Below are positions 1 to 64,000 of a stretch of 64,000 nucleotides of DNA, one piece after another. Location: assembly GCF_009707485.1 (NCBI RefSeq), contig NZ_CP046121.1, positions 558,001-622,000 on the forward strand, in the 5' to 3' direction. The notes under the pieces were generated by a model, which was not told the origin of the DNA, ran no database searches, and saw only the letters and a program-made list of their open reading frames with translations. Source of the DNA: Nostocoides sp. HKS02. GTDB lineage: Bacteria; Actinomycetota; Actinomycetes; Actinomycetales; Dermatophilaceae. Numbering within the stretch: the stretch's first letter is position 1; each line of letters begins with the position of its first letter. A program made the position numbers and the translations under genes.

Positions 1-431
1 CAGCGCACCCAGTCCGGCGTCAGGGGGTAGCGGTACCACTCGCCGTTGTTCGCCTTGACCGCGGCGATGATCTGGAAGACCACCGAGGCGACCGCCGTGG
101 CGACGAGGAACGGGATGCCGATGAGAACAATCGACAGCAAACCGAACACGAGGTACGCGATGAGCAGCACGAGCTGGAAGTTCAGGGCCTGCGCAGCGTG
201 GAACCGGATGAACGGGCCGCGGTCGCGCAGCACGAGGTAGATCACGAGAGGGCCGAGGAACGGCAGCCCGACGAGGGCCGCGAGGAACGGCGACAGGTGG
301 ACCAGCGTGGACCACAGTCGCTCGTCCGACTGCGACATGGGGTTCGCCGACGGCGCACTGTCGTAGTTCGGCGCACTGCCATAGTTCTGGCCGCCCTCGG
401 GCGGCTCGGTGGGGGCTGGCTGGTCGGTCAT
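1..431 (-). CDS. DUF4870 (Tic20-like) membrane protein, C-terminus cut by window edge
   Basis: Small integral membrane protein of unknown function. About 143 residues are visible. A Pro/Gly/Asn/Ser-rich cytoplasmic head (residues 1-36) is followed by the DUF4870 pattern: a helix around LVHLSPFLAALVGLPFLGP, the RDRGPFIRFHAAQALNFQL stretch typical of the family, then two more helices. The ATG at 431 is preceded by GGAGGA at good spacing, which supports the start. The gene runs off the left edge, so the true stop is not seen. It points the same way as the DUF3097 gene upstream of it. Family assignment is firm; function is unknown. Confidence 0.8.
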   Translation of the reverse strand, partial: MTDQPAPTEPPEGGQNYGSAPNYDSAPSANPMSQSDERLWSTLVHLSPFLAALVGLPFLGPLVIYLVLRDRGPFIRFHAAQALNFQLVLLIAYLVFGLLSIVLIGIPFLVATAVASVVFQIIAAVKANNGEWYRYPLTPDWVR

Positions 432-517
432 GGGGGTCCTCCGGACTCGGGTGTGCTGCTCACCCAGTCAAACGCATCGCACGCCCTCTGGACACTGGTT
501 TCGGGGTGCGTTCAGGG

Positions 518-543
518 CCTGGTCAGGGCCGACCCTGACCAGG
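518..543. terminator. Hairpin overlapping the DUF3097 stop codon
   Basis: A perfect 11-bp inverted repeat (CCTGGTCAGGG, CCGA loop, CCCTGACCAGG). It contains the stop codon (523-525) of the DUF3097 gene in its left arm. No T-tract follows on either strand, so it is a candidate GC-hairpin terminator or mRNA 3' stabiliser rather than a classic intrinsic terminator. Confidence 0.45.
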
Positions 544-1416
544 GTGCGTGGGTTCGGTGACGAAGTCGATGAGCTCCTCGACGCTGGCGAGCAGGGTCGG
601 CTCGAGGTCGGCGTAGCTGCGCACGGTCCCCAGGATCCGTTTCCAGGCCATGGCGATGTCGGCCTGGGTCCGGTGCGGCCAGCCCAGGTGCGCGCAGATC
701 CCGTCCTTCCACGAGGTGCCGCGGGGGATGACCGGCCAGACCGAGAGGCCGAGCCGTTCAGGACGGACTGACTGCCACACGTCGACGTAGGGGTGGCCGA
801 GGACGCGGACGTGCGCGGCATACGGACCCGACGACGCCCCCTGGACGATCCGGTGCTCCTTGGTGCCCGGCACGAGGTGGTCGACGAGCACCGCCATCCG
901 GCGTCCCGGACCGGGCTGGAACTCGGCGATGGCGCCGGCGAGGTCGTCGACGCCGTCGAGCATCTCGACGACGACCCCCTCGATGCGCAGGTCGTCTCCC
1001 CACACCTTCTCCACGAGCTCGGCGTCGTGGCGGCCCTCGACGAAGATGCGCGAACCGCTGGCCACCCGCGCGCGCACCCCGGCCACGGCCCGGGAGCCGG
1101 AGGCGGTGCGCGACGCCACCTGCCGCGCCGCGGCGAGCTCGGCGCGGGCCCCGGCCTTCGGCGGCGTCAGGACCACCGGGCCGCCGTCGAGCAGGAAGCC
1201 CGGGCCGAGCGGGAATCCCTTGGACCGCCCGCGACGGTCCTCGAGGTGCACGACGTACATGCCGCCGGCCTTCTCGACCCGCACCACCGCACCGCACCAG
1301 CCCGTCTCGACGTCCTCGACGACCAGACCGTTCTCGGCCTCGACCTCGCGCGATCGACCCCGCGCGGGGGCACGCCAGTCGCCGGAGAGCACGTCGGCGC
1401 CATAGCGGTCTTTCAC
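523..1416 (-). CDS. DUF3097 family protein
   Basis: Actinobacterial conserved protein of unknown function, 297 residues from a GTG at 1416. An N-terminal beta-rich part (about 1-95, with GAVVRVEKAGGMYVVHLEDR) precedes a toprim-like part with SRIFVEGRHDAELVEKVWG and MAVLVDHLVPGTKEHRI, suggesting a nucleic-acid or phosphate-binding fold. The reading frame stays open further upstream, but GTG 1416 is favoured because KDRYGADVL begins the conserved region and a TACGGT -10 box lies 7 bases before it. It is divergent from hrcA, a common arrangement in actinobacteria. The function is inferred only by family membership. Confidence 0.8.
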   Translation of the reverse strand: MKDRYGADVLSGDWRAPARGRSREVEAENGLVVEDVETGWCGAVVRVEKAGGMYVVHLEDRRGRSKGFPLGPGFLLDGGPVVLTPPKAGARAELAAARQVASRTASGSRAVAGVRARVASGSRIFVEGRHDAELVEKVWGDDLRIEGVVVEMLDGVDDLAGAIAEFQPGPGRRMAVLVDHLVPGTKEHRIVQGASSGPYAAHVRVLGHPYVDVWQSVRPERLGLSVWPVIPRGTSWKDGICAHLGWPHRTQADIAMAWKRILGTVRSYADLEPTLLASVEELIDFVTEPTHPGQGRP

Positions 1417-1423
1417 GCCCCAG

Positions 1424-1429
1424 ACCGTA
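1424..1429 (-). promoter_or_regulatory. -10 box TACGGT, leaderless start of the DUF3097 gene
   Basis: TACGGT on the minus strand ends 7 bases before the GTG at 1416, giving a leaderless transcript. It overlaps a copy of the word GTATGCCG (1427-1434). Confidence 0.4.
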
Positions 1430-1499
1430 TGCCGCCGGGCGGCGTCCCAGCCGGTGGCGCGCCGGGTGGGGCGCTCGTCGGCAGGGGAACGACATAGAC

Positions 1500-1526
1500 T
1501 TGGCACTCGTAGAGTCTGAGTGCCAG
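1500..1526. promoter_or_regulatory. CIRCE operator (HrcA site)
   Basis: TTGGCACTC, 9-base spacer, GAGTGCCAG. This is the CIRCE inverted repeat (consensus TTAGCACTC-N9-GAGTGCTAA) with two GC-ward changes in each arm pair. It lies 50 bases before hrcA, so HrcA is expected to repress its own hrcA-dnaJ operon and release it on heat shock. Confidence 0.9.
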
Positions 1527-1576
1527 CCGGCGGGCCGGTCAGGAACACCCGCCGACAGCGCAGAGGAGGAGAGGCC

Positions 1577-2608
1577 ATGAGTGAGGAACGTCGACTCGCC
1601 GTCCTCCGCGCGATCGTGCAGGACTACGTGCAGACCTCCGAGCCCGTGGGCTCCAAGTCCCTGCTCGAGCGCCACCAGCTCGGTGTCTCGGCCGCGACGG
1701 TGCGCAACGACATGGCCGCCCTCGAGGAGGAGGGGCTCATCGCCGCCCCGCACACCTCCGCCGGGCGCGTGCCCACCGATGCCGGCTACCGCCTGTTCGT
1801 CGACCGGCTGAGCTCGGTCAAGCCGATGTCGGTGGCGGAGCGCTCCGCCATCGCGCAGTTCCTCCAGGGTGCTGTCGACCTCGACGACGTCGTCGAGCGC
1901 ACGGTGCGGCTGCTCGCCTCCCTCACCCGCCAGGTCGCCGTGATGCAGTACCCGTCGCTCACCCGCTCGTCGGTGCGCCACGTCGAGTTCGTGCCCATGG
2001 GTGCCCGACGGCTGATGCTCGTGCTCATCGTCAACACCGGCCGGGTCGAGCAGCGGGTCATCGACACCGCCCACGACCTCACCAGCCCCGAGGGCGAGCG
2101 CACGCTCGGCCAGATCCGGGCCAAGGTCAACGCCGTCGCCGTCGGGCAGCGCCTCATCGACGCCGCGGCAATGCTCGAGGCGCTCCCCGAGCAGTTCGAG
2201 CCCGCCGCCCGTGACCTCGTGCGCGCGATCGTCGGGTCGCTCGACGACGCCCTGGTCGAGGAACGCGAGGAGCGCCTGGTCCTGGCCGGCACGGCCAACC
2301 TCGCCCGCGTCGGCACCGACTTCCCGCTCACCATCGGCCCCGTGCTCGAGGCCCTCGAGGAGCACGTCGTGCTGCTCAAGCTGCTCGGGACCGCTCGTGA
2401 GACCTCCGACACCGTGTCGGTGCGGATCGGCCACGAGAACCCGTATGCCGGGCTCCAGACGACCTCGGTCGTCTCGACCGAGTACGGCACGGGTTCGGAC
2501 CTCGTCGCCGGCCTCGGGGTGCTCGGCCCCACCCGCATGGACTACCCCACGACGATGGCGTCGGTGCGGGCAGTCGCCACCTACGTCTCCCGAATCCTCG
2601 CGCAGTGA
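1577..2608 (+). CDS. hrcA: Heat-inducible transcription repressor HrcA
   Basis: Repressor of chaperone genes that binds CIRCE and is kept active by GroEL. The protein has 343 residues, normal for the family. The N-terminal winged helix contains [23 protein letters not shown] and [20 protein letters not shown], followed by [19 protein letters not shown], the signature of the family. A GAF-like dimerisation and insertion region follows. The ATG at 1577 has a strong GGAGGAG ribosome site and a CIRCE box upstream. dnaJ starts 25 bases after its stop, indicating one heat-shock operon with dnaJ and rsmE. Confidence 0.95.
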
Positions 2609-2633: not shown

Positions 2634-3761
2634 TTGAACGACTACTACCAGGACCTCGGCGTTTCGCGAGACGCCTCACCCGAGGACATCAAGCGCGCCT
2701 ACCGCAAGAAGGCCCGCGCCCTGCACCCGGACGTCAACCCCAGCCCCGAGGCCGAGGAGCAGTTCAAGAAGGTCTCGCAGGCCTACGACGTGCTCGCCGA
2801 CGCCGACAAGCGCCGGTCCTACGACATGGGTGCCGACCCGTATGCCGCGGGTGCGGCGGGCTTCGGGCAGGGGTTCTCGTTCAGCGACATCATGGACGCG
2901 TTCTTCGGTGCGGGGGCCGGCACGAACCAGCGCGGGCCCCGGTCGCGGCAGCGGCGGGGCCAGGACGCGCTGGTCCGGCTCGACATCGACCTGGCCGACG
3001 CCGTCTTCGGCGCCGAGAAGGACCTCGCGATCGAGACGGCGGTGGTGTGCTCGACCTGCCACGGCGACGGCGCCCAGCCGGGCACCGCGCGGCGCACCTG
3101 TGACGTGTGCGGCGGTCGGGGCGAGATCCAGCAGGTCCAGCGCTCGTTCCTCGGCCAGGTCATGACGACCCGACCGTGCATGACCTGCCAGGGCTATGGC
3201 GAGGTCCTGGTCAGCCCGTGCTTCGAGTGCTCGGGCGACGGGCGGGTCCGCACTCGCCGCACCTTGAAGATCAAGGTTCCGGCTGGAGTCGACACCGGCA
3301 CCCGCATCCAGCTGGGTGGCGAGGGCGAGGTGGGTCAGGGCGGCGGACCGGCTGGCGACCTCTACGTCGAGATCAACGTCCGGGCACACCAGAGCTTCCA
3401 GCGACGCGGTGACGACCTGCACTGCCACGTCGAGCTGCCGATGACGGCCGCCGCCCTGGGCACGACCCTCAAGCTGGACACCTTCGACGGCATCAACGAG
3501 CTCGAGGTCAAGGCCGGCACCCAGGCCGGCGACGCCATGACCCTTCGCGGGCTGGGGGTGACCCACCTGCGCGGCACCGGCCGCGGCGACCTCATCATCC
3601 ACGCGACGGTGCAGACCCCGACCCGGCTCGACGAGCAGCAGGAGGAGCTCCTGCGCCAGCTCGCGGCGCTGCGCGGGGAGGAGCGGCCCGACGGTCGCTT
3701 CGCGCCGGCCAACCAGGGTGGCCTGTTCGGGAAGCTCCGCGACGCCCTCAAGGCGAAGTAG
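2634..3761 (+). CDS. dnaJ: Molecular chaperone DnaJ (type I, DnaJ2 paralogue)
   Basis: Co-chaperone that delivers unfolded proteins to DnaK and stimulates its ATPase. The protein has 375 residues. The J-domain (1-70) carries HPD at 31-33. A Gly/Phe-rich linker (about 66-100) is followed by four zinc-finger repeats, [24 protein letters not shown] and CFECSGDG (about 140-210), and the C-terminal substrate-binding domain. The start is TTG at 2634: it places YYQDLGVS at the very N-terminus and has AAGGAC 7 bases upstream. This copy beside hrcA is the heat-shock DnaJ usually separate from the dnaK-grpE-dnaJ1 operon. Confidence 0.95.
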
Positions 3762-3771: not shown

Positions 3772-4515
3772 GTGACCCTGCCGCTGTTCCTCGTGCCGCC
3801 TGCCCTGGTGGCCGACGTCACGGTCGGGGACCTCGTAGGGCTCGACGGCGCGGAGGGCCGGCACGCGGCCACCGTGCGCCGGATCGGCGTGGGGCAGCGG
3901 GTCATGCTCGCCGACGGCGAGGGCCTGCGGGTCACCTGCGACGTCGTCGGGGTCCACCCCGCCCAGCTCGACCTGGCGGTCGTCGGCGTCGACCACGAAC
4001 CACCGCCACAACCCAGGTTCGTGCTCGTCCAGGCGCTCGCCAAGGGTGACCGCGACGACCAGGCGGTCGAGTCGGCGACCGAGCTCGGCGTGGACGAGGT
4101 CGTGCCCTGGCAGGCCGCCCGGTGCATCGTCCAGTGGCGGGGCGAGCGCGGCGAGAAGGCCCGGCGCAAGTGGGAGACCACGGTGGCCGCGGCGAGCAAG
4201 CAGTCCCGCCGGGCGCGGGTCCCGGTCGTCGCCGAGCTGGTCACCACCCGCACCCTGGCCGAACGCATCGAGGCGGCAGCCGCGGCATACGTGCTCCACG
4301 AGGACGCCACGATGGCGCTGGCCGGTCACGCGCTGCCCGAGCATGGCGACGTCGTCGTCGTGGTCGGCCCCGAGGGGGGCATCACGCCCGAGGAGGTCGC
4401 CCAGCTCGAGGCGGCCGGGGCCATCGCCGTGCGCCTGGGCCGCAGTGTCCTGCGGTCCTCGAGTGCCGGCCCGGCCGCGCTCGCCGTGCTGAGCGCGACC
4501 AGCCGGTGGCGCTGA
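3772..4515 (+). CDS. rsmE: 16S rRNA (uracil-1498-N3)-methyltransferase RsmE
   Basis: SPOUT-class methyltransferase that methylates U1498 of 16S rRNA with SAM. The protein has 247 residues from a GTG only 10 bases after dnaJ. An N-terminal PUA-like domain (EGRHAATVRRIGVGQRVML) precedes the trefoil-knot domain with QALAKGDRDDQAVESATELGV, the SAM-binding VVVVVGPEGGITPEEV and the terminal LGRSVLRSSSAGPAALAVL. All family landmarks are intact. The run of six G at 4374-4379 is in frame here, unlike several similar runs elsewhere in the window. Confidence 0.95.
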   Translation: MTLPLFLVPPALVADVTVGDLVGLDGAEGRHAATVRRIGVGQRVMLADGEGLRVTCDVVGVHPAQLDLAVVGVDHEPPPQPRFVLVQALAKGDRDDQAVESATELGVDEVVPWQAARCIVQWRGERGEKARRKWETTVAAASKQSRRARVPVVAELVTTRTLAERIEAAAAAYVLHEDATMALAGHALPEHGDVVVVVGPEGGITPEEVAQLEAAGAIAVRLGRSVLRSSSAGPAALAVLSATSRWR

Positions 4516-5675: not shown

Positions 5676-6238
5676 GATGACGCCTCCATCCGGTCGCGCA
5701 GCGACGCCAGGCCGCGGTGGGCGTGAGCCTTCACCGAGCCGGGCGAGATGCCGAGCGCGTCGGCGATCTCGGCCTCGCTGAGCTCGAGGTAGTACCGCAT
5801 CGTCAGGACCTCTCTCTGGCGCTGGGGCAGCCGCCCCAGGGCCGTGATCATCGAGTGGGTCGCCTCGCCGGCGAGGGCGCGTTCCTCCGCGCTGGCCTCG
5901 GTGCGTCGTGCGTATGCCGTGGGTTCGCCCTGCTCGCGGGTGAGGTACCGCTGCTCGACGCCGCGGTGGCGCAGGCCCGACCGGGCGCCGTTGACGACCG
6001 ACCGGCGCAGGTAGGCGGCCGCGTTCTCCTGGCTGCGCAGCGAGTCCCACCGGCGGTGCACGGCGATGAACGCGTCCTGCACGACCTCCTCGGCCAGCTG
6101 GTCGTCGCGCAGCAGGAGCCAGGCGAGTCGCACGAGACCGGTCCAGTGCGCGGCATACAGGTCGGCGACCGCCGCGTCGGCCGCCGACGTCACGGCGCCC
6201 CCCGGGCGGTTGCGTTCTGCCACGCTCAACGGTCTCAC
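5672..6238 (-). CDS. ECF sigma factor, SigE-like (SigE family, actinobacterial)
   Basis: Extracytoplasmic-function sigma factor of about 188 residues. Region 2 is seen in LYAAHWTGLVRLAWLLLRDDQLAEEVVQDAFIAVHRRW and region 4 in ALGRLPQRQREVLTMRYYLELSEAEIADALGISPGSVKAHAHRGLASLR. The GTG at 6238 is the longest credible start; a second GTG 15 bases further in would remove five residues. It is transcribed away from the HIT gene with the membrane partner downstream. The pair interrupts the rsmE-HIT-phoH order common in actinobacteria, as if inserted there. The regulon is unknown. Confidence 0.88.
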   Translation of the reverse strand: MRPLSVAERNRPGGAVTSAADAAVADLYAAHWTGLVRLAWLLLRDDQLAEEVVQDAFIAVHRRWDSLRSQENAAAYLRRSVVNGARSGLRHRGVEQRYLTREQGEPTAYARRTEASAEERALAGEATHSMITALGRLPQRQREVLTMRYYLELSEAEIADALGISPGSVKAHAHRGLASLRDRMEASS

Positions 6239-8226: not shown

Positions 8227-9553
8227 GTGACCACGCTCGTCCTCGCCGCCCTGCTGAGCATCTTCATCGCGTTCCTCCTGGCCGCTGCCGAGGCCGCGAT
8301 CTGGCGGATGTCGCGGGTGCGCGCCCACGAGCTGCTCGAGGAGCGGCGACCCGGGGCCGAGGCGCTGGCGCGCATCGTCGCCGACAGCGCGGCATACCTG
8401 TCGGTCACGGCGTTCCTGCGCATCGTCGCCGAGGCCACCACGGCGGTCCTGATCACCCTCGGGGTCGTCGACCTCGTCGACGGGTTCTGGAAGCAGGTGC
8501 TGATCGCGATCGGCGTCATGGCGCTGGTGTCGTTCGTGGTCGTCGGGGTCTCGCCGCGCACCCTGGGCCGACAGCACTCCGACCAGGTGGCGCTCGTCGC
8601 CTCGCCGTTCATCGTCTGGCTGCGCCGCGTGCTCGGTCCGCTGGCGCGCGTGCTCGTGGCGCTCGGGAACGCCGTCACCCCCCGGCCGCGGCTACCGCGA
8701 CGGCCCGTTCCAGACCGAGTCCGAGCTGCGCGACCTCGTCGACCTCGCCGGCGAGAGCGCGGTCATCGAGGCCGGCGAGCGCGAGATGATCCACTCCGTC
8801 TTCGAGCTCGGCGACACCGTGGCCCGTGAGGTGATGGTCCCGCGCACCGACATGGTGACGATCGACGGCACGAAGTCCCTGCGCTCGGCCATGTCGTTGT
8901 TCCTGCGGTCCGGCTTCTCACGCATCCCGGTGGTGGGCGACGGGTCCGACGACGTCCTCGGGCTGCTCTACTTCAAGGACGTGGCGCGTCGGGTCAACGC
9001 CGACCCCGACGCGGCAGGCCTGCCGGTCACCGCCCAGATGCGCCCGATGCACTTCGTGCCCGAGAGCAAGCCCGTCGACGACCTGCTCCGCGAGATGCAG
9101 CGTGACCAGAGCCACTTCGCCGTGGTCGTCGACGAGTACGGCGGGACGGCGGGCCTGATCACGATCGAGGACATCATCGAGGAGATCGTCGGAGAGATCG
9201 CCGACGAGTACGACCGCGAGGCGCCGGGCATCGAGGACCTCGGCGATGGCCGGTTCCGGGTGCCGGCGGCGATGGACATCGACGACCTCGCCGACCTGTT
9301 CGACGTCGAGATCGAGGAGGACGAGGTCGACACCGTCGGCGGCCTCATCGGCAAGCACATCGGCCGGGTCCCCATCGTGGGCTCACGCTGCGAGGTGTCC
9401 GGGCTGTCGCTCACCGCCGAACGGATGGCCGGTCGTCGCCACCGCATCGCCTCGGTGATCGTCGAGCGCGTCAGCCCCACTCCGGCCGAGGGCGATGCCG
9501 CCGCCGTCCCCGAGCGGACTACGGTGGAGCACCAGCGAGAGGGAGTGTCATGA
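8227..9553 (+). pseudogene. CNNM/CorC-HlyC family membrane protein with CBS pair, frameshifted
   Basis: Membrane protein of the family linked to magnesium and cobalt efflux. Corrected length would be 441 residues: an N-terminal DUF21 domain with about four helices (TTLVLAALLSIFIAFLLAA at the start), two CBS domains (MVPRTDMVTIDG and GGTAGLITIEDIIEEIVGEI) and a C-terminal CorC_HlyC domain. The frame breaks in a run of six C at 8678-8683. With five C the protein reads AVTPGRGYRDGPFQTESELR and continues to the stop overlapping era. Both halves look well conserved, so an extra C from sequencing or a very recent mutation is more likely than an old pseudogene. Confidence 0.85.
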
Positions 9554-10479
9554 CCGTCGTGAACCAGAGCACGTATGCCGCGGGCTTCGCGTGCCTGGTC
9601 GGGCGGCCGAACGCGGGCAAGTCGACCCTGACCAACGCCCTGGTGGGCCAGAAGGTCGCGATCACGTCCTCGAAGCCGCAGACCACCCGGCACACGATCC
9701 GCGGGATCGTCACGACGGAAGCGTCCCAGCTGGTGCTGGTCGACACGCCGGGTCTGCACAAGCCCCGCACGCTGCTGGGCGAGCGGCTCAACGACGTGGT
9801 GCGGGCGACCCTGCTCGAGGTCGACGTCATCGGCTTCTGCCTGCCGTCCGACCAGCGCATCGGGCCTGGTGACGCGTACATCGCCCGCGAGCTGGTCGAG
9901 ATCCAGCAGTCGAAGCGCCGCCCCGTCGTGGCGATCGCCACGAAGACGGACCGGGTCGACCGTCAGCGGCTGGCCGAGCACCTCATCGCCATCGACCAGC
10001 TCGGTTCGTGGGACGCGATCGTGCCCTGCTCGGCCGTGGACGGGTCGCAGGTCCAGGAGGTCGCCCAGGTGCTCTGCTCGTACCTGCCGAGCTCACCCGG
10101 CCCGCTGTACCCCGCAGGCGTCCTCACCGACGAGCCCGAGGCGGTGATGATCGCCGAGCTCGTGCGCGAGGCGGCGCTCGAGGGAGTGCGCGACGAGCTG
10201 CCGCACTCGCTGGCCGTCGTCGTCGAGGAGATGGTCCCGCGGGCGGGGCGGTCCGAGGACAACCCCCTGCTCGACGTGCGGGTCAACGTGTTCGTCGAGC
10301 GCTCGTCGCAGAAGGCCATCATCATCGGCCGGGGCGGGTCACGGCTGCGCGAGGTCGGCACGACGGCGCGGCAGTCCATCGAGGCCCTGCTCGGCCAGCG
10401 GGTCTACCTCGACCTGCACGTGAAGATCGCCAAGGACTGGCAGCGCGACCCCAAGCAGCTCCAGCGGCTCGGGTTCTGA
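9550..10479 (+). CDS. era: GTPase Era
   Basis: Essential GTPase that binds 16S rRNA and helps assemble the 30S subunit. The protein has 309 residues. G1 is GRPNAGKS at 18-25, G2 TTRHTIRG, G3 DTPGLHKP, and G4 reads TKTD rather than the usual NKxD, a variation seen in actinobacterial Era. The C-terminal KH domain (about 215-309) contains IIIGRGGSRLREVG. The ATG overlaps the previous stop by four bases (ATGA), coupling it to the CBS gene. Confidence 0.95.
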   Translation: MTVVNQSTYAAGFACLVGRPNAGKSTLTNALVGQKVAITSSKPQTTRHTIRGIVTTEASQLVLVDTPGLHKPRTLLGERLNDVVRATLLEVDVIGFCLPSDQRIGPGDAYIARELVEIQQSKRRPVVAIATKTDRVDRQRLAEHLIAIDQLGSWDAIVPCSAVDGSQVQEVAQVLCSYLPSSPGPLYPAGVLTDEPEAVMIAELVREAALEGVRDELPHSLAVVVEEMVPRAGRSEDNPLLDVRVNVFVERSSQKAIIIGRGGSRLREVGTTARQSIEALLGQRVYLDLHVKIAKDWQRDPKQLQRLGF

Positions 10480-10501: not shown

Positions 10502-11548
<1,047 letters not shown>

Positions 11549-11566: not shown

Positions 11567-13519
11567 TCAGCGGACGGCGCGCCAGACCGACTCGCTCTCG
11601 CTGGGCCCGGGCGACCACGGTGCGATCCATGGGCCGGTGCCCTCCGAGACGTCGAGCACGCCCTCCTCCAGCCAGGTGTAGTCGCCGGCCAGCACGCCGT
11701 GCGCCACCCGCCCGTCGGCGTCGTCGGTGTTGGTCCACAGGGCCGCGAACAGCGCCTCGGTCCGCAACCGGCTCTGGCGGCAGAAGACGTCGGCCAGCTG
11801 CTGCGCAGAGCGTCCCGTCCCGGCGTCGTCAGCGCGCAGCATGGCAGCCCGCGAGCAGGCGGCGGACATCGCGAACAGCTCGGCGCCGATGTCGACGATC
11901 CGGCCCAGGAACGCCTGGCGGTACTCCAGCTTCGCCTGCCACCGCGACATCGCGTAGAACGTCTGTCGCGCCAGCTTGCGTGACGCACGCTCCACATACC
12001 GCAGGTGCTCCGCGAGCGGCCCGAACTCGGCATACGAGGTGGGCACGGTGCCCTTGCCGGCCACGAGATGGGGCAGCCACCTGCCGTAGAAGCCGCTCGC
12101 ATCCACCGCCGCGCGTGCCTTCTGCTGCGGCGTCGCGGCGGGTGAGGCGAGGTCGCCGGCGGCCTTGAGGTGGGCGTCGACGGCTTCGCGGGCGATGAGC
12201 AGGTGCATGATCTCGGTGGACCCCTCGAAGATCCGGTTGATCCGCAGGTCGCGCAGCACCTGCTCGGCGGGCACCGCTCGCTCACCCCGGGCCGCCAGGG
12301 ACGCCGCCGTCTCGTATCCCCGGCCCCCGCGAATCTGCACGAGCTCGTCGGCGATGCGCCAGGCCATCTCGCTCGACCACAGCTTGGCCAGTGCGGCCTC
12401 GATGCGGATGTCCTTGCTACCGGCGTCGGCGAGCTGGGCCGACAGCTCCAGCACCGACTCGAGCCCGTAGGTCGTGGCCGCAATGAAGGCGAGCTTCTGC
12501 GCCACCGCCCCGTGCTCGCCGACCGGTCGGCCCCATTGCACCCGCGTGGCCGACCACTCGCGGGCGATCTTGAGCGACCACTTGCCCGCCGCGGCGCACA
12601 TCGCGGGGATCGAGAGGCGCCCGGCGTTGAGCGTGGTGAGCGCGATCTTGAGCCCCTCGCCCTCCTTGCCCAGCCGGTTCTCGACGGGCACGCGCACCTG
12701 GTGGAACCGGGTCAGGCCGTTCTCGAGTCCCTTGAGCCCCATAAAGGAGTTGCGGCGCTCCACCGTGATGCCCTCCGAGGTGCCCTCGACGACGAAGGCG
12801 GTGATGCCTCCGCGGTGGCCCTCGTGCTCAGGTACCCGGGCCATCACCACGAGGAGCTCGGCGACGACACCGTTGGTGGTCCACAGCTTCACCCCGTCGA
12901 GCAGGTATGCCGTGCCGTCGACTGTCGGGGTGGCCGTGCTGGCCATCCGGGCGGGGTCGGAGCCCACGTCCGGCTCGGTGAGCAGGAACGCGGAGATCGC
13001 ACCGGCTGCGCAGCGGGGGAGGAACGCCTGCTTCTGCTCCGGGGTCCCGACCAGCTTGACCGGCTCGGGAACGCCGATCGACTGATGGGCCGAGAGCAGG
13101 GCGCCCAGGCTCGGGTGGGCGGAGCCGGCCAGGACGAGCGCCTTGCCGTACGACGACATGGTGAGGCCGAGGCCGCCGTACTCCCGGGGGATCTTCATGC
13201 CGAACGCGCCGATGTCATTGAGCGCCGCGAGGTACTCGTCGGGAATGCGGTCGTCGCGCTCGATGCGCGTCCCGTCGAAGCCTTCGCAGACAGCCCGCAG
13301 CCGCGTCAGGAACTCCGCGCCGCGGGCCTCGTCATCGGGTCGGGCGCGGGGGTGCGGGTGGACGAGGTCGAGGTCGAACCGTCCGAGGTACAGCCCCTTG
13401 GCGAAGCTCGGCCGGTCCCAGTCCGCCTCTCGGGCGGCCTCCGCCACGGCCCGCGACTCACGTTCGGTGGCCCGGACGGGGGTGCCCTGGTCGGGATGGC
13501 TGTCGGTGACGTGGGTCAT
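11567..13519 (-). CDS. Acyl-CoA dehydrogenase, large VLCAD-like type
   Basis: FAD enzyme for the first step of fatty-acid beta-oxidation. At 650 residues it is longer than the usual 380-400 because it carries a C-terminal helical extension, as in VLCAD/ACAD9-like proteins. Visible marks: AFLLTEPDVGSDPARM (FAD/substrate loop), YLLDGVKLWTTNG, GGRGYE and the catalytic Glu in RINRIFEGSTEIMHLLIAREAV. The ATG at 13519 has GAGGAGG upstream. It converges with asd and diverges from the ACC deaminase gene. Confidence 0.92.
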   Translation of the reverse strand: MTHVTDSHPDQGTPVRATERESRAVAEAAREADWDRPSFAKGLYLGRFDLDLVHPHPRARPDDEARGAEFLTRLRAVCEGFDGTRIERDDRIPDEYLAALNDIGAFGMKIPREYGGLGLTMSSYGKALVLAGSAHPSLGALLSAHQSIGVPEPVKLVGTPEQKQAFLPRCAAGAISAFLLTEPDVGSDPARMASTATPTVDGTAYLLDGVKLWTTNGVVAELLVVMARVPEHEGHRGGITAFVVEGTSEGITVERRNSFMGLKGLENGLTRFHQVRVPVENRLGKEGEGLKIALTTLNAGRLSIPAMCAAAGKWSLKIAREWSATRVQWGRPVGEHGAVAQKLAFIAATTYGLESVLELSAQLADAGSKDIRIEAALAKLWSSEMAWRIADELVQIRGGRGYETAASLAARGERAVPAEQVLRDLRINRIFEGSTEIMHLLIAREAVDAHLKAAGDLASPAATPQQKARAAVDASGFYGRWLPHLVAGKGTVPTSYAEFGPLAEHLRYVERASRKLARQTFYAMSRWQAKLEYRQAFLGRIVDIGAELFAMSAACSRAAMLRADDAGTGRSAQQLADVFCRQSRLRTEALFAALWTNTDDADGRVAHGVLAGDYTWLEEGVLDVSEGTGPWIAPWSPGPSESESVWRAVR

Positions 13520-14711: not shown

Positions 14712-14735
14712 CGTATGCCGCCACGGCGGCATACG
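14712..14735. terminator. Hairpin made of two inverted GTATGCCG words
   Basis: An 11-bp perfect stem (CGTATGCCGCC) with a two-base loop, 27 bases after the acdS stop. Each arm carries one copy of the genome word GTATGCCG. The right arm runs into the -10 box of the leuA leader (14732-14737), so the element may end acdS transcription, control leuA, or both. Confidence 0.5.
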
Positions 14736-49316: not shown

Positions 49317-49832
49317 ATGTCCGTCGCGATGCCGCGTGTCATGACCCGCGGGGTGGTGTTCATTCACTCCACCCCGACTGCGCTGTGCCCGCACATCACC
49401 TGGGCCCTGGAGTCCGCGCTCGACAGCCGCCTGTCGATCGACTGGACCCGTCAGCCAGCCGGTGCCGCACTCGTCCGCGCGGAGTTCCCGTGGAGCGGTG
49501 TGCAAGGCACCGGCGCCAAGCTCGCCTCCACCCTGCGTGGGTGGGACGGACTGCGCTATGAGATCACCGAGGAGCCCAGTCCCGGCGCCGACGGCTCGCG
49601 GTGGTCGCACACCCCCCGCCTGGGCATCCACCACACCTGGACCTCGGCCGCCGGTGACGCGGTCATCAACGAGGACCGCCTGCGCGAGGTCCTGCGGCTC
49701 TCGCAGGGATCTCCTGAGGCGATGGCGGAGATGGTCGAGGAGCTGCTCGGCAGCGACTGGGACGCCGAGCTCGAGCCCTTCCGGTATGCCGGCGACGGGG
49801 CTCCGGTGCGATGGCTCCACAAGGTGGGTTGA
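49317..49832 (+). CDS. DUF3145 family protein
   Basis: Conserved actinobacterial protein of 171 residues, function unknown. TRGVVFIHSTPTALCPHITWALESAL, FPWSGVQGTGAKLASTLRGWDGLRYEITEEPSPG and the C-terminal WDAELEPFRYAGDGAPVRWLHKVG are family blocks. ATG 49317 has AGGAGG 5 bases upstream. It usually lies near the fabF/accD end of the fatty-acid cluster, as here. Confidence 0.92.
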   Translation: MSVAMPRVMTRGVVFIHSTPTALCPHITWALESALDSRLSIDWTRQPAGAALVRAEFPWSGVQGTGAKLASTLRGWDGLRYEITEEPSPGADGSRWSHTPRLGIHHTWTSAAGDAVINEDRLREVLRLSQGSPEAMAEMVEELLGSDWDAELEPFRYAGDGAPVRWLHKVG

Positions 49833-51820: not shown

Positions 51821-51926
51821 GGCTGGATGTGCTCCTTCGTCGGGTGGTGCGTGGGTGGTGCACCGGCGCGGGACGCCGCGGGCTCGGCGGTGACCGCCGT
51901 ATGCCGCGCCCCGCGCCGGGTGGGGC

Positions 51927-54385: not shown

Positions 54386-55564
54386 CTACGCAGGCCGCGA
54401 TCGAGAGGACTGGCTGAGGCGGCCGAGCGCGAGCGCGATCCGCACGGTGTGGGCGTCGTGTTGGTCGGTCAGCTGGTAGCCGGTGAGGTCGGCGATCTTG
54501 CCGAGGCGGTACCGGACCGTGTTGGGGTGGACGAACAGCAGCCGAGCGGTGCCCTCGAGGCCGCCCGCCGACTCGAGGTAGACGGCCGCGGTGTCGAGCA
54601 GACCGCCACCCGCGCCCACGAGCGGGTGCCAGATCCGGTCGAGCAGCAGGGCCCGGGCGGGACCGTCACCCACGAGGACGCGCTCGGCCAGCAGGTCGTC
54701 GGCCGCGACCGGCCGGGGGGCCTGCGGCCAGGCATGGGCGCAGGAGTGCCCCGCCAGTGCCGCCCGCGCGGAGCGTCCCGCCGCGAACAGGTGCGGCACC
54801 CGGGGGCCGACCACCACCGGCCCGTCGCCGAAGTGGTCGGCGACTGCGCGGGTGGCCTCGAGGGGGTCGTCGACGTTGCCGAGGATGCAGACCAGGCGAC
54901 GGCCCTGGATCGCGGCGAGGATGTCGACGCCGACCTTCTGCGCAGCACGGCGCAGGCCGTCGACCACCCCCGCAGGGCTGCCGGCGGGCGTGCTTCCGGC
55001 GATGACGGCGACACGGGTCGTCGTGCCCCACCCGAGCGCGGCGGCCCGCGACTGCATCGAGTCGTCGGCCTCACCGCGGAGCACGGCGTCCACCACGAGT
55101 CCTTCGAGCCGGGCGTCCCACGCGCCGCGGGCCTCCGCGGCGTGGGCGTAGACCTCGGCAGCGGCGAACGCGATCTCGCGCGAGTACCGCAGGACGGACT
55201 CGCGCAGGGCCTGCTCCTCACCCGGCTCGGCGAGCGCGGTGGCATCGAGCTCGACCACGTCGACGACCGACCGGACGAGGTCGAGGGTCTGGCGCAGGGT
55301 GATCGAGCGGGTCAGCTCTCGCGGTGCCGTGCCGAACACGTCGGCGGTCACCGGGACCTGGTCGCCCCCCGCGCGGAGCCAGGCGATGAACGCGGCGATG
55401 CCGGCCTGGGCCACGAGTCCCACCCACGACCGGTCCTCGGCGGACAGGGCGCGGTACCACTCGTGGCTCGCCTCCATCCGGCGGATCGCCGCGGTGGAGA
55501 GCTCTCCGGCGGCCCGCTCCACCCGCTGCAGGGTGACCTGCGAGGTGTCCTGGCGCGACGGCAT
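54386..55564 (-). CDS. fasR: PucR-type regulator, probable fatty-acid synthesis activator FasR
   Basis: Transcription factor of 392 residues. N-terminal helical part, a GGDEF-like/CdaR middle (about 170-290), and a C-terminal PucR HTH_30 domain: AGGLEGTARLLFVHPNTVRYRLGKIADLTGYQL. In Streptomyces, FasR upstream of fabD activates the fabD-fabH-acpP-fabF operon; the same order here supports that role. The ATG at 55564 lies in a perfect inverted repeat made of two GTATGCCG words with a -10 box in its loop. Confidence 0.88.
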   Translation of the reverse strand: MPSRQDTSQVTLQRVERAAGELSTAAIRRMEASHEWYRALSAEDRSWVGLVAQAGIAAFIAWLRAGGDQVPVTADVFGTAPRELTRSITLRQTLDLVRSVVDVVELDATALAEPGEEQALRESVLRYSREIAFAAAEVYAHAAEARGAWDARLEGLVVDAVLRGEADDSMQSRAAALGWGTTTRVAVIAGSTPAGSPAGVVDGLRRAAQKVGVDILAAIQGRRLVCILGNVDDPLEATRAVADHFGDGPVVVGPRVPHLFAAGRSARAALAGHSCAHAWPQAPRPVAADDLLAERVLVGDGPARALLLDRIWHPLVGAGGGLLDTAAVYLESAGGLEGTARLLFVHPNTVRYRLGKIADLTGYQLTDQHDAHTVRIALALGRLSQSSRSRPA

Positions 55565-55589
55565 ACGGGCAGTCTATTTGTATGCCGTC
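55557..55589. promoter_or_regulatory. Inverted GTATGCCG pair flanking the fasR -10 box
   Basis: Arms GACGGCATAC (55557-55566) and GTATGCCGTC (55580-55589) with a 13-base loop. The loop holds TAGACT on the minus strand, and the left arm holds the fasR start codon. Confidence 0.7.
55571..55576 (-). promoter_or_regulatory. -10 box TAGACT, leaderless start of fasR
   Basis: TAGACT on the minus strand ends 6 bases before the fasR ATG; no ribosome site is present. Confidence 0.5.
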
Positions 55590-55656: not shown

Positions 55657-56529
55657 TCAGCCGGCGTGGTCGCGCCAGCTGTGCTGCGGCTCGTAGCCGA
55701 GCACCCGGCGCGCCTTGGCGATCGACAGCAAGGTCTCGTGCTCGCCGAGCTCGCCGCGCACCTCGACGCCGGGGAAGACCTCGGCCATGAGGTCGGCGCT
55801 GGAGCGGCTCATCACGGTGTCGGCGTTGGCGACGATGAAGACGTCGGTGCCCGGGTCGGGGTACTCGAGCGCGCGGCGCACCGCCTGGGCTCCGTCGCGC
55901 GCGTCGATGTACCCCCACAGGTTCCACTTCCGCAGCAGGGGGTCGGTGTCGTAGCCGGGGAACGCGGCGTAGTCGGCGACGTCCATGACGTTGGAGAACC
56001 GCAGCCCGATCATGCTCAGCTCGGGGTCCCAGCGGCAGAACTGACGGGCCATCTCCTCCTCGAGCACCTTGGTCAGGGAGTACGCCGACTCCGGCCGCGG
56101 CGGGTAGTCCTCGTCGACGGGTGCGTAGGGCGGGGGAGTGTCGAAGGGCAGCCCGAGCACGGTCTCGCTCGAGGCCCACACGACCTTGCGTATGCCGGCG
56201 GCGCGAGAGGCCGCGAAGACGTGGTAGGTCGCAGCGGAGTTGTTGGCAAAGGTCGTGGCGTTCGCCATCAGCCCGGACGCGGGGAGGGCGGCGAGGTGCA
56301 CCACGGCGTCGAGCCGGCCGCGGTGCTCGTCGGTCCACCCCGTCAGCGCCTCGAGCACCTGCCCGTAGTCGGTGAGGTGGACGGCCAGGAACTCGGTCGT
56401 CGGCTCCGGCGGGCGGTGCCGGTCGAGGGCGAGCACCTGCCAGCCCTGCTCGACCAGGTGGGACACGACGGCCCGACCGAGCTTGCCCGAGGACCCGGTG
56501 ACGGCGACGCGGCCGGGCGCACCCGGCAT
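55657..56529 (-). CDS. NAD-dependent epimerase/dehydratase family protein
   Basis: Extended short-chain dehydrogenase of 290 residues. Rossmann motif VAVTGSSGKLGRAVV at the N-terminus, VVHLAALPASG, SSETVLG and the catalytic YSLTK (about 150). GLRFSNVMDVADYAAFPGYD follows. It resembles the UDP-glucose 4-epimerase-like group, but the substrate cannot be read. It lies between aceE and fasR, eight bases from the aceE stop, and is not part of the usual fatty-acid cluster. A GTATGCCG copy overlaps the start codon. Confidence 0.88.
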   Translation of the reverse strand: MPGAPGRVAVTGSSGKLGRAVVSHLVEQGWQVLALDRHRPPEPTTEFLAVHLTDYGQVLEALTGWTDEHRGRLDAVVHLAALPASGLMANATTFANNSAATYHVFAASRAAGIRKVVWASSETVLGLPFDTPPPYAPVDEDYPPRPESAYSLTKVLEEEMARQFCRWDPELSMIGLRFSNVMDVADYAAFPGYDTDPLLRKWNLWGYIDARDGAQAVRRALEYPDPGTDVFIVANADTVMSRSSADLMAEVFPGVEVRGELGEHETLLSIAKARRVLGYEPQHSWRDHAG

Positions 56530-56537
56530 ACCGGCGT

Positions 56538-59442: not shown

Positions 59443-60282
59443 TCACCACCCCAGACGGTGCGCGCCGGCATACACGGTCATCCGCGGTGGTCGCGCGAAC
59501 CCGACCAGCGTCAGTCCTGACCGGGTGGCGAGGTCCGCGGCGAGCGAGGAGGGGGCGGACACCGCGACGAGGGCCGGCAGCCCGGCCATGACCGCCTTCT
59601 GCACGAGCTCGAAGCTGGCGCGACCGCTGACCACCAGGACGTGCCCGCTCAGGGGCAGCAGTCCCTCGCGCCCCGCCCAGCCGACGGCCTTGTCGACCGC
59701 GTTGTGGCGGCCGACGTCCTCGCGGACGACGAGCGCCTCACCCGAGGCGGTGAAGATCCCGGCCGCGTGCAGCCCGCCGGTGCGGTCGAACACCTTCTGG
59801 TGCTCGCGCAGGGCGTCGGGAAGCCCGGCCACGACGGCGGGGTCCAGCGCGACCGGGTCGGTGGCGACGGCATACGGGCTGGTCGCGGTGATGGCGTCGA
59901 TGCTCGTCTTTCCGCACACCCCGCAGGCGCTGCTCTGGTACCCCGAGCGCGCGGCGCGGTCGAGGTCGGGGACCACGCCCGGCGCGAGGGTGACGTCCAC
60001 GACGTTGTAGGTCGGGGAGCCCGACTCGTCCTCGTCGAGGCAGTGCATCAGCTGCTGGACGTCGGTGGCGTGACGCAGCACGCCCTCGGTGAGCAGGTTG
60101 CCGACGGTCAGGTCGAAGTCGTCGCCGGGCGTCCGCATGGTCACCGTCACCGACACCCCCGAGACGCGGATCTCGAGGGGCTCCTCGACCGCGAGGGTGT
60201 CCGGGCGAGAGGTGGTGCGGGGCTCACCTCCGGCGGTGATCTCGACGCGGATGCTCGGCGTGCGACTCGTGACCCGACCCAT
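59443..60282 (-). CDS. fdhD: Sulfur carrier protein FdhD
   Basis: Transfers sulfur from a cysteine desulfurase to the molybdenum cofactor of formate dehydrogenase. The protein has 279 residues. The sulfur-carrying CxxC lies in GYQSSACGVCGKTSIDAI (about 120), with TPGDDFDLTVGNLLTEGV, TGGLHAAGIF, VVREDVGRHNAVDKAVGW and SGRASFELVQKAVMAGLPALVAVSAPSSLA. The ATG at 60282 is preceded by a -10 box at leaderless spacing. The formate dehydrogenase genes are not in the window. Confidence 0.94.
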   Translation of the reverse strand: MGRVTSRTPSIRVEITAGGEPRTTSRPDTLAVEEPLEIRVSGVSVTVTMRTPGDDFDLTVGNLLTEGVLRHATDVQQLMHCLDEDESGSPTYNVVDVTLAPGVVPDLDRAARSGYQSSACGVCGKTSIDAITATSPYAVATDPVALDPAVVAGLPDALREHQKVFDRTGGLHAAGIFTASGEALVVREDVGRHNAVDKAVGWAGREGLLPLSGHVLVVSGRASFELVQKAVMAGLPALVAVSAPSSLAADLATRSGLTLVGFARPPRMTVYAGAHRLGW

Positions 60283-60333: not shown

Positions 60334-60822
60334 GTGAGTGACGTGCGCTTGTTCGGGAACGCCGGTATGCCGTGGCAGCCGGTGTCTCCGCGACTGGTCA
60401 CCGCCCGGCTGACGGTCCTGGCCGCCGTGCTGGTCGTGCCCCTGCTCGTGACCGTCGCCCTCGCGGTGGCCGTCTCGAGCACGCTGTGGTGGGCCGTCGG
60501 CGTCGTGGTGCTGGTGGGCGCCTGGGGGACGTGGGTGGTCCTGCGACAGGTCCCGGCCATCACCTGGCTCGAGCTGGACGACGAGCTCGTCGTGCGACGC
60601 GGGCGCCTGTTCCGGTCGCTGGTCACCGTGCCGTACGGCCGGCTCCAGTACGTCGACGTCCAGAGCGGGCCGCTCGACCGCGCCCTCGGCATCGCCGAGG
60701 TGGCGCTGCACACGGCCTCACCACAGTTCAGCGCCGACATCCCCGGTCTGCCGCTGGCCGAGGCGGAGGCCCTGCGGCAACGCCTCGTGGCCCGCGGCGA
60801 GTCCCAGCGGGCGGGTCTGTGA
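60334..60822 (+). CDS. PH domain-containing protein (YdbS-like)
   Basis: Membrane protein of 162 residues. Two helices (LTVLAAVLVVPLLVTVALAVAV and LWWAVGVVVLVGAWGTWVVL) are followed by one bacterial PH (bPH2) domain: ELDDELVVRRGRLFRSLVTVPYGRLQYVDVQSGPLDRALGIAEVALHTA. Together with the next gene (GTGA overlap) it forms the YdbS-YdbT pair of Bacillus, linked there to resistance to a bacteriocin. Function here unknown. Confidence 0.88.
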   Translation: MSDVRLFGNAGMPWQPVSPRLVTARLTVLAAVLVVPLLVTVALAVAVSSTLWWAVGVVVLVGAWGTWVVLRQVPAITWLELDDELVVRRGRLFRSLVTVPYGRLQYVDVQSGPLDRALGIAEVALHTASPQFSADIPGLPLAEAEALRQRLVARGESQRAGL

Positions 60823-62831: not shown

Positions 62832-62838
62832 TCGCTGG

Positions 62839-62844
62839 CAGACT
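62839..62844 (+). promoter_or_regulatory. -10-like box CAGACT, leaderless start of the peroxiredoxin gene
   Basis: CAGACT ends 6 bases before the ATG at 62851, with no ribosome site. It differs from TAGACT at the first base, so this is less certain. Confidence 0.3.
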
Positions 62845-62850
62845 TTGGCC

Positions 62851-63327
62851 ATGACCGCTTCGAGCGAGCCGCTGCCCGTCGGCGCCACAGCCCCCGACTT
62901 CACCCTCAAGGACCAGAACGGCGAGGAGTACTCGCTCGCCGACTTCCGTGGGCGCAAGAACGTCGTCGTGGTCTTCTACCCCTTCGCGTTCTCGGGCATC
63001 TGCACCGGTGAGTTCTGCGAGATCCGCGACAACCTCGGCGCGTTCGTCGGCGACGACGTGCAGGTCCTGGCCGTGTCGTGCGACCACATGTTCACGCAGC
63101 GGGCCTGGGCCGACAAGGAGGGGTACTTCTTCCCCCTGCTCTCCGACTACTGGCCGCACGGCGGTGTCGCGCAGTCGTTCGGCGTCTTCCACGAGCAGGC
63201 CGGGGCGGCCGTCCGCGGCACCTTCCTCATCGACACCGAGGGCATCGTGCGCTGGTCGCTGGTCAACGGCATCGGGCAGGCTCGTGACTTCTCCGGCTAC
63301 CACGCTGCCCTCGCTGATCTCCGTTAG
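62851..63327 (+). CDS. Peroxiredoxin, AhpE type
   Basis: Thiol peroxidase that reduces hydrogen peroxide and alkyl or fatty-acid peroxides. The protein has 158 residues. APDFTLKDQNGEEYSLADFRG, the peroxidatic Cys in VFYPFAFSGICTGEFCEIRDN (about 50, Cys of GIC) and GTFLIDTEGIVRWSLVN are the AhpE pattern. A second Cys five residues on (EFC) may act in resolving it. Next to DUF3052 and aceE as in mycobacteria. Tightly followed by tRNA-Val. Confidence 0.92.
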   Translation: MTASSEPLPVGATAPDFTLKDQNGEEYSLADFRGRKNVVVVFYPFAFSGICTGEFCEIRDNLGAFVGDDVQVLAVSCDHMFTQRAWADKEGYFFPLLSDYWPHGGVAQSFGVFHEQAGAAVRGTFLIDTEGIVRWSLVNGIGQARDFSGYHAALADLR

Positions 63328-63354
63328 CCTCTGGGCTGACCCTCCGACTCAGAG

Positions 63355-63427
63355 GGGCCTGTAGCTCAGTTGGTAGAGCGCCACGTTTACACCGTGGATG
63401 TCGTCGGTTCGAGCCCGGCCGGGCCCA
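63355..63427 (+). tRNA. tRNA-Val (TAC)
   Basis: Acceptor GGGCCTG pairs with CGGGCCC; D arm GCTCAGTTGGTAGAGC; anticodon stem CCACG/CGTGG with loop TTTACAC (anticodon TAC); T arm GTCGG-TTCGAGC-CCGGC. The CCA end is not encoded. Confidence 0.93.
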
Positions 63428-63428
63428 C

Positions 63429-64000
63429 GTGCACCCTGCGCAGCCCAAGCTCCGAGATGTCGTCCAGGCGCTCGATGGCCTCTTCCCGCCTGCCACCGCC
63501 CAGTCCTGGGACCAGGTCGGGCTCGTGTCCGGCGACCTCGACCAGCCCGTCGAGCGCGTCCTGTTCGCGGTCGACCCCACCCTCGCCGTCATCGAGGAGG
63601 CCCGCTCACTGGGCGTCGACCTCCTGGTGACCCACCACCCCCTGCTGCTGCGCGGCATACACAGCGTGGCGACGTCGAGCGCCAAGGGCGCGAGCGTCAC
63701 GGCCCTCGTCGTCCACGACATCGCACTGTTCGTCGCCCACACCAACGCCGACGTGGCCGAACCCGGGGTCAACGACGCCCTGGCCGCGGCCTGCGGGCTC
63801 ACCGAGACCTCGCCGCTCGCGGTCGTCGAGGGCCAGGCCCTGGGCCGCGTGGGCGAGCTCCCGTCGCCCGCCACCCTCGCCGACTTCGCGTCCCGCCTGT
63901 ATGCCGCCCTGCCGCCCGCCGCCGGGGGGTTGCGGGTCGCCGGTCCCCCCGACGGCCCCGTGCGCCGGGTGGCCGTCATGGGCGGGGCGGGCGACGACCT
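63429..64000 (+). CDS. Nif3-like dinuclear metal centre protein, cut by window end
   Basis: About 190 residues are visible from GTG 63429, one base after the tRNA. It opens HPAQPKLRDVVQALDGLFPPATAQSWDQVGLVSGD, then LFAVDPTLAVIEEARSLGVDLLVTHHPLLLRGIHSVA (metal-binding His pair) and VVHDIALFVAHTNADVAEPGVNDALA, all typical of the Nif3/DUF34 family, whose function is debated. No other start precedes the conserved part. The gene continues past the window edge. Confidence 0.88.
   Translation, partial: MHPAQPKLRDVVQALDGLFPPATAQSWDQVGLVSGDLDQPVERVLFAVDPTLAVIEEARSLGVDLLVTHHPLLLRGIHSVATSSAKGASVTALVVHDIALFVAHTNADVAEPGVNDALAAACGLTETSPLAVVEGQALGRVGELPSPATLADFASRLYAALPPAAGGLRVAGPPDGPVRRVAVMGGAGDD

Follow-up and report, generated by a model that had tools for sequence, protein, structure and literature searches.

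A strand-spaced octamer in the Intrasporangiaceae and its possible role as a DNA-uptake word

What maintains the octamer GTATGCCG, which is not a palindrome, at high frequency in a 64-kb stretch of the chromosome of Nostocoides sp. HKS02? The stretch, hereafter the window, comprises bases 558,001-622,000 of this genome (G000; a single contig of 3,482,451 bp). GTATGCCG is its most over-represented 8-mer (order-2 Markov expectation 1.26). We counted exactly 50 copies, 25 on each strand, in agreement with the initial annotation, which had put the number at about 50, and all 16 positions that it quoted are correct; its chance expectation of two to three copies, however, is too high, as 100 dinucleotide shuffles gave a mean of 0.91 and a maximum of 4. 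A copy excludes others from its own strand over about 1 kb but not from the opposite strand, which is a new observation. The explanation that we prefer, at about even odds, is that GTATGCCG belongs with the DNA-uptake words, that molecular drive has spread it by way of transformation, and that its reading depends on strand polarity.

The enrichment extends to the whole genome, which holds 2,537 copies (1,273 forward and 1,264 reverse), or about 730 per Mb and one per roughly 2.5 kb of each strand; the word read backwards, our control, occurs 159 times (94 and 65). More detailed analyses used samples covering 13 % of G000 (464 kb: the window and twenty 20 kb stretches), 13 % of G068, a second genus taken as Phycicoccus elongatus Lp2, and 11 % of G026, from a third. 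In a separate set of 40 loci, the four shorter than 4 kb were left out. The G000 sample contains 341 copies against 9.6 expected (order-2 Markov), and 22 of the 24 one-base variants do not rise above 2.5 times their expectation there, the two that do being CTATGCCG (31 vs 5.4) and GGATGCCG (122 vs 42.9). The extended form proposed earlier survives as a weak YG after the eight bases (ninth base C or T in 70 %, tenth base G in 65 %), but the flanks otherwise carry little information.

The copies had been described as evenly spread and balanced in orientation. Their spacing is indeed regular and the balance exact, but this description is incomplete, as the orientations alternate above chance (33 opposite to 16 same-strand neighbours in the window). 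They alternate because same-strand copies avoid each other. Neighbouring copies are opposite in 214 instances and on the same strand in 106 in the G000 sample, and the corresponding numbers are 189 and 95 in G068. Same-strand pairs closer than 250 bp number 3 in G000 (30.5 expected) and 8 in G068 (28.6 expected), and the deficit in G000 extends to about 1.5 kb. Below 1 kb, same-strand pairs amount to 46 against 120.0 expected in G000, 57 against 112.3 in G068 and 89 against 174.3 in G026, whereas opposite-strand pairs amount to 126 against 130.3, 148 against 120.9 and 189 against 184.9, respectively; in G000 the latter are near expectation at every distance. The observed values were never reached in 2,000 rounds of strand-label permutation in any of these genomes. 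The strand law holds in three genera and for two dialect words, the word of G026 being GGATGCCG, with 259 opposite to 125 same-strand neighbours. Spacing along each strand is even, with an interval coefficient of variation of 0.66 against 0.93 +/- 0.07 in simulations (genomes with fewer than seven neighbour pairs were left out). In a pool of 34 further loci with 400 copies (those with at least five copies, plus nine hand-picked named word-rich loci), 220 neighbours are opposite and 146 are on the same strand, and same-strand pairs below 250 bp number 9 against 34.1 expected. Independent support comes from 81 word-rich genomes, whose forward-minus-reverse counts have a variance of z of only 0.605 (1 being random), as alternation predicts. 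Nine other frequent words of G000 have no clear same-strand deficit below 1 kb (the lowest being 24 vs 28.7, for CGATGCCG); among these controls GGATGCCG alternates slightly (62 to 39), with no same-strand deficit.

One could assume that the word merely reflects codon or peptide bias, repeats or mutational bias. Most genic copies do occur in Tyr-Ala or Ala-Tyr contexts, and 239 of 293 lie in the two commonest frames. However, synonymous codon shuffling within the 433 genes of the G000 sample, which were called, like the permissive sites below, with our own simple gene caller, left only 21.7 +/- 4.3 copies (200 rounds, largest 32) in place of the 293, and the density is similar in coding and non-coding DNA (0.729 and 0.695 per kb). 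The sister word GTACGCCG is another possible spelling of this Tyr-Ala and is depleted in genes (38 vs 68.6 expected), and 137 of 303 TAT codons and 28 of 48 ATA codons in the sample lie within GTATGCCG. The rare codons reported for the window, ATA at 56190 and 63653 and CAT at 35313, are present, and a further CAT is found at 60365. GTATGCCG thus acts at the level of DNA, as the initial annotation had argued from codon usage, and the codon shuffle and the sister 8-mer, both of which it had named as checks, agree. With sister words near background, control words free of a clear same-strand deficit and few copies in the 184 genomes examined from 19 other families, an origin by codon or mutational bias is hardly tenable.

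The rule by which the word is placed can be read from permissive sites, that is, positions in called genes at which the word is compatible with the encoded protein. In G000, 293 of 594 are filled. Among the 517 at least 1.5 kb from the ends of the stretches, filling rises with the distance to the nearest other same-strand copy, from 1/53 below 250 bp through 22/73, 39/110, 57/105 (1-1.5 kb) and 84/114 to 51/62 beyond 2.5 kb, so that 135 of the 176 sites free of a same-strand copy within 1.5 kb are filled; the distance to an opposite-strand copy has no clear effect on these 517 sites. In G068 229 of 482 sites are filled, and in G026, with its own word, 271 of 958. Filling in these two genomes is 0.14 and 0.15 below 250 bp from a same-strand copy and 0.63 and 0.56 at 1.5-2.5 kb. 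In G068 it drops back to 0.41 beyond 2.5 kb and is also low where the opposite-strand copy is far away, which probably reflects islands that contain no word at all. Orthologous genes of word-rich genera, few in number, often carry the word at the same place: at permissive sites shared between genomes this is so for 57 genome pairs, where occupancy by itself would give 34.4. The filling of thousands of sites, each of them trivial, suggests drive rather than ordinary selection; a drive model is described for the uptake signal sequence (USS) of Pasteurellaceae in the text available to us of PMC7811141.

Even spacing, together with the similar density inside and outside genes, could also be explained by a chromosome-organising or nucleoid-protein site of which one is needed per kilobase or two. 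A protein that binds double-stranded DNA should, however, space its sites regardless of strand, and opposite-strand copies are not mutually spaced; moreover, gaps at islands and the replacement of one word by another are unlike a structural need. There is also no replichore skew, the best scanned split between origin and terminus reaching 53.7 % in G000 and 55.3 % in G068 (permutation P 0.83 and 0.49), so the word does not resemble FtsK orienting polar sequences (KOPS) or architecture imparting sequences (AIMS). We therefore regard a structural site as improbable. A mapping of replichore bias had been proposed at the outset, where equal orientation was taken to argue against strand-biased words; the lack of skew speaks against KOPS-like words and a classic Chi, although a Chi-like word remains the main rival (see below). 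Another explanation is a target of a type I, III or IIG-like DNA methyltransferase, retained as a tag of self DNA. With its 8 bp, no palindrome and an adenine on either strand, the word would suit a strand-specific mark of this kind. As a rule, however, restriction targets are avoided rather than enriched, and this mark would have been kept across genera although methyltransferases turn over quickly, which makes a methylation target decidedly improbable.

Of 149 sampled genomes of the family, 81 are rich in the word (>150 copies per Mb), 50 are poor (<30; this class includes the dialect genome G026) and 18 lie between, so the comparison with related genera suggested earlier reveals a word shared by many family members, with dialects and probable losses. 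In 184 genomes from 19 other families of the order GTATGCCG is rare, and its largest count (167) is below that of the reversed control in the same genome (184). Among named relatives (loci 195-217 and 248, plus any with more than three copies), the word is frequent in 12-22 kb loci of Knoellia remsis, Intrasporangium oryzae, Humibacillus xanthopallidus, a Terrabacter and several Ornithinimicrobium strains, and such loci of Janibacter indicus, Intrasporangium flavum and Dermacoccus abyssi contain none; for more distant actinobacteria, 24 copies were counted over 56 loci with a total of 1.16 Mb. GTATGCCG is confined to one actinobacterial family, which the named relatives place as the Intrasporangiaceae and which we take to be the Dermatophilaceae of GTDB. 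Word-rich and word-poor lineages are scattered over a protein tree of 19 genomes (G014 was left out of 20), and an ancestral word followed by several losses would be the simplest history. The patchy presence within the family probably reflects these losses. Low or intermediate counts were seen in G124, G137, G104, G103 and in g17, g20, g21 and g48; these genomes may be decaying after loss of the reader.

Clade-specific dialects that differ by one base are present, one of which replaces GTATGCCG and another of which is interchangeable with it. In G026 GTATGCCG is nearly lost (40 copies; 1 of 368 permissive sites filled) and the top octamer is GGATGCCG, with 406 copies in 433 kb against 34.1 expected and 3,949 genome-wide, compared with 260-887 in 17 other genomes. 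Both GTATGCCG and GAATGCCG occur in G012 and in two named loci from metagenome-assembled genomes, where same-strand pairs of one with the other are scarce (2 vs 13.9 expected), while opposite-strand pairs are at expectation (15 vs 15.0). This same-strand exclusion suggests that one reader seems to treat both words alike. No dominant alternative word was found in small samples of the word-poor genera, with the exception of GAAGGGGG in genera g37 and g38. GAAGGGGG is raised about tenfold in the word-poor genomes G126, G138, G038 (g38) and G037 (g37), with 49 copies against 4.9 expected in samples of three g38 genomes; it resembles KOPS and the SpoIIIE recognition sequences (SRS), and could be an FtsK guide or the Chi of these genera.

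Three regions chosen for low word counts were inspected as deserts. An rRNA operon in L012, in which the genes for the small subunit, large subunit and 5S RNAs were found, is free of copies between those at 4,727 and 13,653. The other two regions are island-like and also free of copies. The first 14.6 kb of L156 contain a Mutator-family transposase and several glycosyltransferase genes, and copies resume inside glnE; the low-GC end of L025 holds an Abi_C gene. Word density increases with the GC content of 5 kb tiles in both genomes examined for this.

If the word is spread by uptake, then word-bearing DNA from lysed relatives would be taken up, or kept after uptake, more efficiently, and recombination would then copy the word into the population. 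Read with polarity, a copy would be of use to its own strand, or direction, alone; each strand would then need no more than one copy per 1-2 kb, and another on the same strand would bring no gain. The polarity may reflect the single strand that enters the cell, and the driving process is probably natural transformation by ComEA/ComEC and the Tad/Flp pilus, although the step from a driven, strand-specific word to transformation is one that we infer. ComEC was found in 145 of 149 genomes, T2SSE-family ATPases in 148 of 149 and TadE-like pseudopilins in 41 of 41, and the part of PMC4322843 available to us reports that the actinobacterium Micrococcus luteus needs com and tad genes for transformation. 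The near-universal presence of these proteins and the requirement in M. luteus lead us to favor an uptake or acceptance signal that is read with polarity. More tentatively, and with somewhat less confidence than in the uptake word as such, we propose that GTATGCCG is a strand-addressed uptake or acceptance signal in the transformation of Gram-positive actinobacteria. It would be recognised on a single strand, either as that strand enters or as a polar point of entry, by a reader unrelated to the ComP and PpdA pilins; drive would maintain thousands of copies until each strand is saturated at about one per 1-2 kb, and a genus would change its dialect and its reader together. Candidate readers would be a Tad/Flp pseudopilin, ComEA or a protein of the incoming strand.

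Several observations weigh against this uptake reading. PilM occurs in 5 of 149 family genomes and not in G000, and N_methyl pilins in none of 41, so that a link to type IV pili was rejected. ComEC and the T2SSE-family ATPases are equally present in word-poor genomes, and neither ComEC presence nor the ATPase count (the latter judged by eye) contrasts between rich and poor; both were discarded as determinants of the word. In 20 chosen genomes (8 rich, 3 dialect candidates and 9 poor), the com and tad-B neighbourhoods contain the same gene types in word-rich and word-poor genomes; our gene caller missed some genes in this comparison, calling ComEC in 19, ComEA in 17 and TadA in 18 of the 20. 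As these loci and the ATPases are alike in rich and poor genomes, they do not explain which genomes have the word, and no gene tracking its presence was found among those compared. In G000 itself comEC is interrupted, with 9 bp between its two reading frames (G000:C1:1517076-1517881, L125), which we would guess to be an assembly error but which may be a real lesion; the first gene called in L009 of the same genome also looks truncated. Literature searches returned no report on competence in Intrasporangiaceae. The uptake of USS-bearing DNA by Haemophilus influenzae is independent of orientation in the accessible text of PMC1939737, which also describes no orientation bias along the chromosome; the strand law is therefore not predicted by the classic model. 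Nor does the simple strand law explain an excess of opposite-strand pairs below 100 bp in G068 (23 vs 12.4), G026 (30 vs 18.9) and the pooled loci (26 vs 14.6). Finally, G003, G004 and G114 have elevated counts of GTATGACG as well as GTATGCCG, and when these genomes are combined with G027 the two words do not exclude each other (30 vs 29.1), and an unconfirmed candidate dialect, GTACGACG/GTACGCCG (GTACGMCG), has no exclusion in G040 (33 opposite to 37 same-strand neighbours, 73 copies). These non-excluding words may be separate words, belong to decaying systems or offer too little data.

The close inverted pairs to which the initial annotation had pointed are near chance in G000 (18 vs 13.3 below 100 bp). 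A terminator role was rejected on this count, the excess in G068, G026 and the pool leaving a side use possible. The same annotation had expected comEA-comEC beside hrcA (1577-2608 of the window); in fact comEC lies about 0.9 Mb from hrcA. G046, G025, G005 and G108 have a much stronger, full-length match to T2SSE-family ATPases than the other genomes listed, and G025 also has PilM; each of the four is word-rich or close to it, but the group is too small for a verdict. The searches also returned no uptake experiment on these bacteria and, in the portions of the literature that were accessible, no report of GTATGCCG or of an uptake word in Gram-positives, the listed matches to the octamer looking like chance occurrences from their titles and the opening of their abstracts.

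The strongest rival is a Chi-like recombination word, read in one orientation by a helicase-nuclease that moves in from a DNA end and then switches to recombination; AdnAB could be this enzyme where RecBCD is lacking. If this were the case, then incoming or broken DNA bearing the word would survive, and the word would be driven to spread in the same way as under uptake. Orientation dependence is built into this model, and the strand law, with one site per kb in each orientation and the two orientations independent, is what one expects of a directional end-processing enzyme. However, none of the nine genomes sampled from the window's genus has a match to RecC, and RecBCD was therefore rejected as the reader there. 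In the family RecC is patchy (59 of 149), with a lower share among word-rich genomes (20 of 70) than among word-poor ones (26 of 46; Fisher P 0.0036, uncorrected for kinship). The known Chi words are skewed along the replichores and co-oriented with replication, which GTATGCCG in G000 and G068 is not, and Chi of Escherichia coli K-12 displays no same-strand exclusion (26 same to 21 opposite, in a low-power sample of 53 copies in 300 kb). A Chi-like role is in our judgment unlikely, although it deserves to be taken seriously.

The copies within the window are given here by window position and strand. At the left, hrcA (1577-2608(+)), dnaJ (2634-3761(+)) and an RNA methyltransferase gene (3772-4515(+)) stand in a row over 1577-4515 and contain the copies 2443..2450(+), 2840..2847(+) and 4283..4290(-), respectively. 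Two copies form an intergenic inverted pair, 14713..14720(+) with 14727..14734(-), and a second inverted pair joins 55559..55566(-), at a gene boundary, with the intergenic 55580..55587(+). A further copy lies at a gene boundary at 56524..56531(-), and intergenic or boundary copies are 1427..1434(+), 18632..18639(-), 22613..22620(-), 24018..24025(-), 26188..26195(-), 43392..43399(+) and 51899..51906(+). Several genes contain more than one copy: 5912..5919(+) and 6151..6158(-) in 5672-6193(-), 12028..12035(-) and 12905..12912(+) in 11567-13519(-), 28569..28576(-) and 28633..28640(+) in 28214-29023(+), 34527..34534(-) and 34654..34661(+) in 33725-34954(+), 50828..50835(-) and 51298..51305(-) in 50576-51820(-), 59466..59473(-), 59868..59875(-) and 60365..60372(+) (His CAT) in 59443-60711(-), and 63653..63660(-) (Ile ATA) and 63899..63906(+) in 63429-63998(+). 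The remaining copies within genes are 816..823(-) in 523-1416(-), 8390..8397(-) in 8227-8829(+), 9573..9580(+) in 9550-10479(+), 11035..11042(+) in 10514-11548(+), 17102..17109(+) in 16683-17888(+), 18266..18273(-) in 17946-18581(-), 19475..19482(-) in 19468-20250(+), 21446..21453(+) in 20762-21934(-), 23120..23127(+) in 22703-23317(-), 31587..31594(-) in 30880-31713(-), 32249..32256(+) in 31752-32975(+), 35313..35320(+) (His CAT) in 34970-36007(-), 36376..36383(+) in 36004-37587(-), 37716..37723(-) in 37588-38400(-), 40860..40867(+) in 40723-41202(+), directly after dnaG, 41748..41755(-) in 41515-42345(-), 45114..45121(+) in 44532-45488(-), 46816..46823(-) in 45533-47257(-), 49784..49791(+) in 49317-49832(+), and 56190..56197(+) (Ile ATA) in 55657-56529(-). 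The window also holds dnaG itself at 38783-40723 and a pyruvate dehydrogenase E1 gene at 56538-59303.

In the literature that we found, as far as its text was accessible, no families other than Neisseriaceae and Pasteurellaceae are described as having sequence-specific uptake words. If the uptake reading of GTATGCCG is correct, then high-GC Gram-positives that lack type IV pili would add a third case, independent of the other two; uptake words would emerge wherever DNA is accepted with a bias and then recombined, and a little-studied family would exchange genes by transformation. Adding the word in both orientations to DNA might then make these organisms transformable. The strand rule offers a new type of evidence, in that a genome by itself may reveal the polarity of a DNA-handling machine, and the test extends to the DNA uptake sequence (DUS) of Neisseriaceae, to USS, to Chi and to other words.

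The likeness to the uptake words of Neisseria and Pasteurellaceae that was first proposed holds for dialects, presumed losses, even spacing, lack of skew and deserts, but not for the mechanism, as pilus parts are missing and the spacing is strand-specific. GTATGCCG is no standard DUS or USS: the known receptors of those words are type IV minor pilins or are predicted to be so, and none of 41 genomes searched yielded such a pilin. Like GTATGCCG, the DUS (e.g., ATGCCGTCTGAA, with the receptor ComP) are short and non-palindromic, occur at hundreds of copies per Mb in both orientations and have clade dialects; they differ in their length of 10-12 bp rather than 8 bp, and GTATGCCG has an actinobacterial host in which PilM and N_methyl pilins were not found, and a strand-specific exclusion. 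The ATGCCG common to both is probably due to chance, since CTG, the essential DUS core according to the available part of PMC12061091, is absent from GTATGCCG. The USS of Pasteurellaceae (AAGTGCGGT), whose receptor is predicted to be PpdA in the text available of PMC12616744, resembles GTATGCCG in density, even spacing and lack of orientation bias along the chromosome. In the accessible part of PMC7811141, USS are spaced at about 1,000 bp and under-represented in rRNA genes and newly acquired segments, a sparseness that GTATGCCG shares in our three low-count regions, and 23 % of USS in H. influenzae lie less than 100 bp from another. By contrast, same-strand neighbours of GTATGCCG below 250 bp are nearly absent. 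In H. influenzae neither the position nor the orientation of the word affects uptake; the strand-specific spacing in the genomes examined here suggests that both may matter for GTATGCCG.

Chi (GCTGGTGG and its relatives) shares with GTATGCCG its eight letters and lack of a palindrome, and its action depends on orientation; GTATGCCG differs in its density, its dialects within one family, the lack of replichore skew and the lack of RecC in the genomes sampled from the window's genus. HIP1 of cyanobacteria (GCGATCGC), a highly iterated palindromic octamer, is like GTATGCCG conserved in its clade and of unknown function, but strand rules cannot be read from a palindrome. The octamers of FtsK and SpoIIIE are skewed along the replichores, in contrast to GTATGCCG; KOPS, SRS and the TraB recognition sequences (TRS) are nevertheless, like GTATGCCG, non-palindromic octamers, and they are read directionally by FtsK, SpoIIIE and TraB, respectively.

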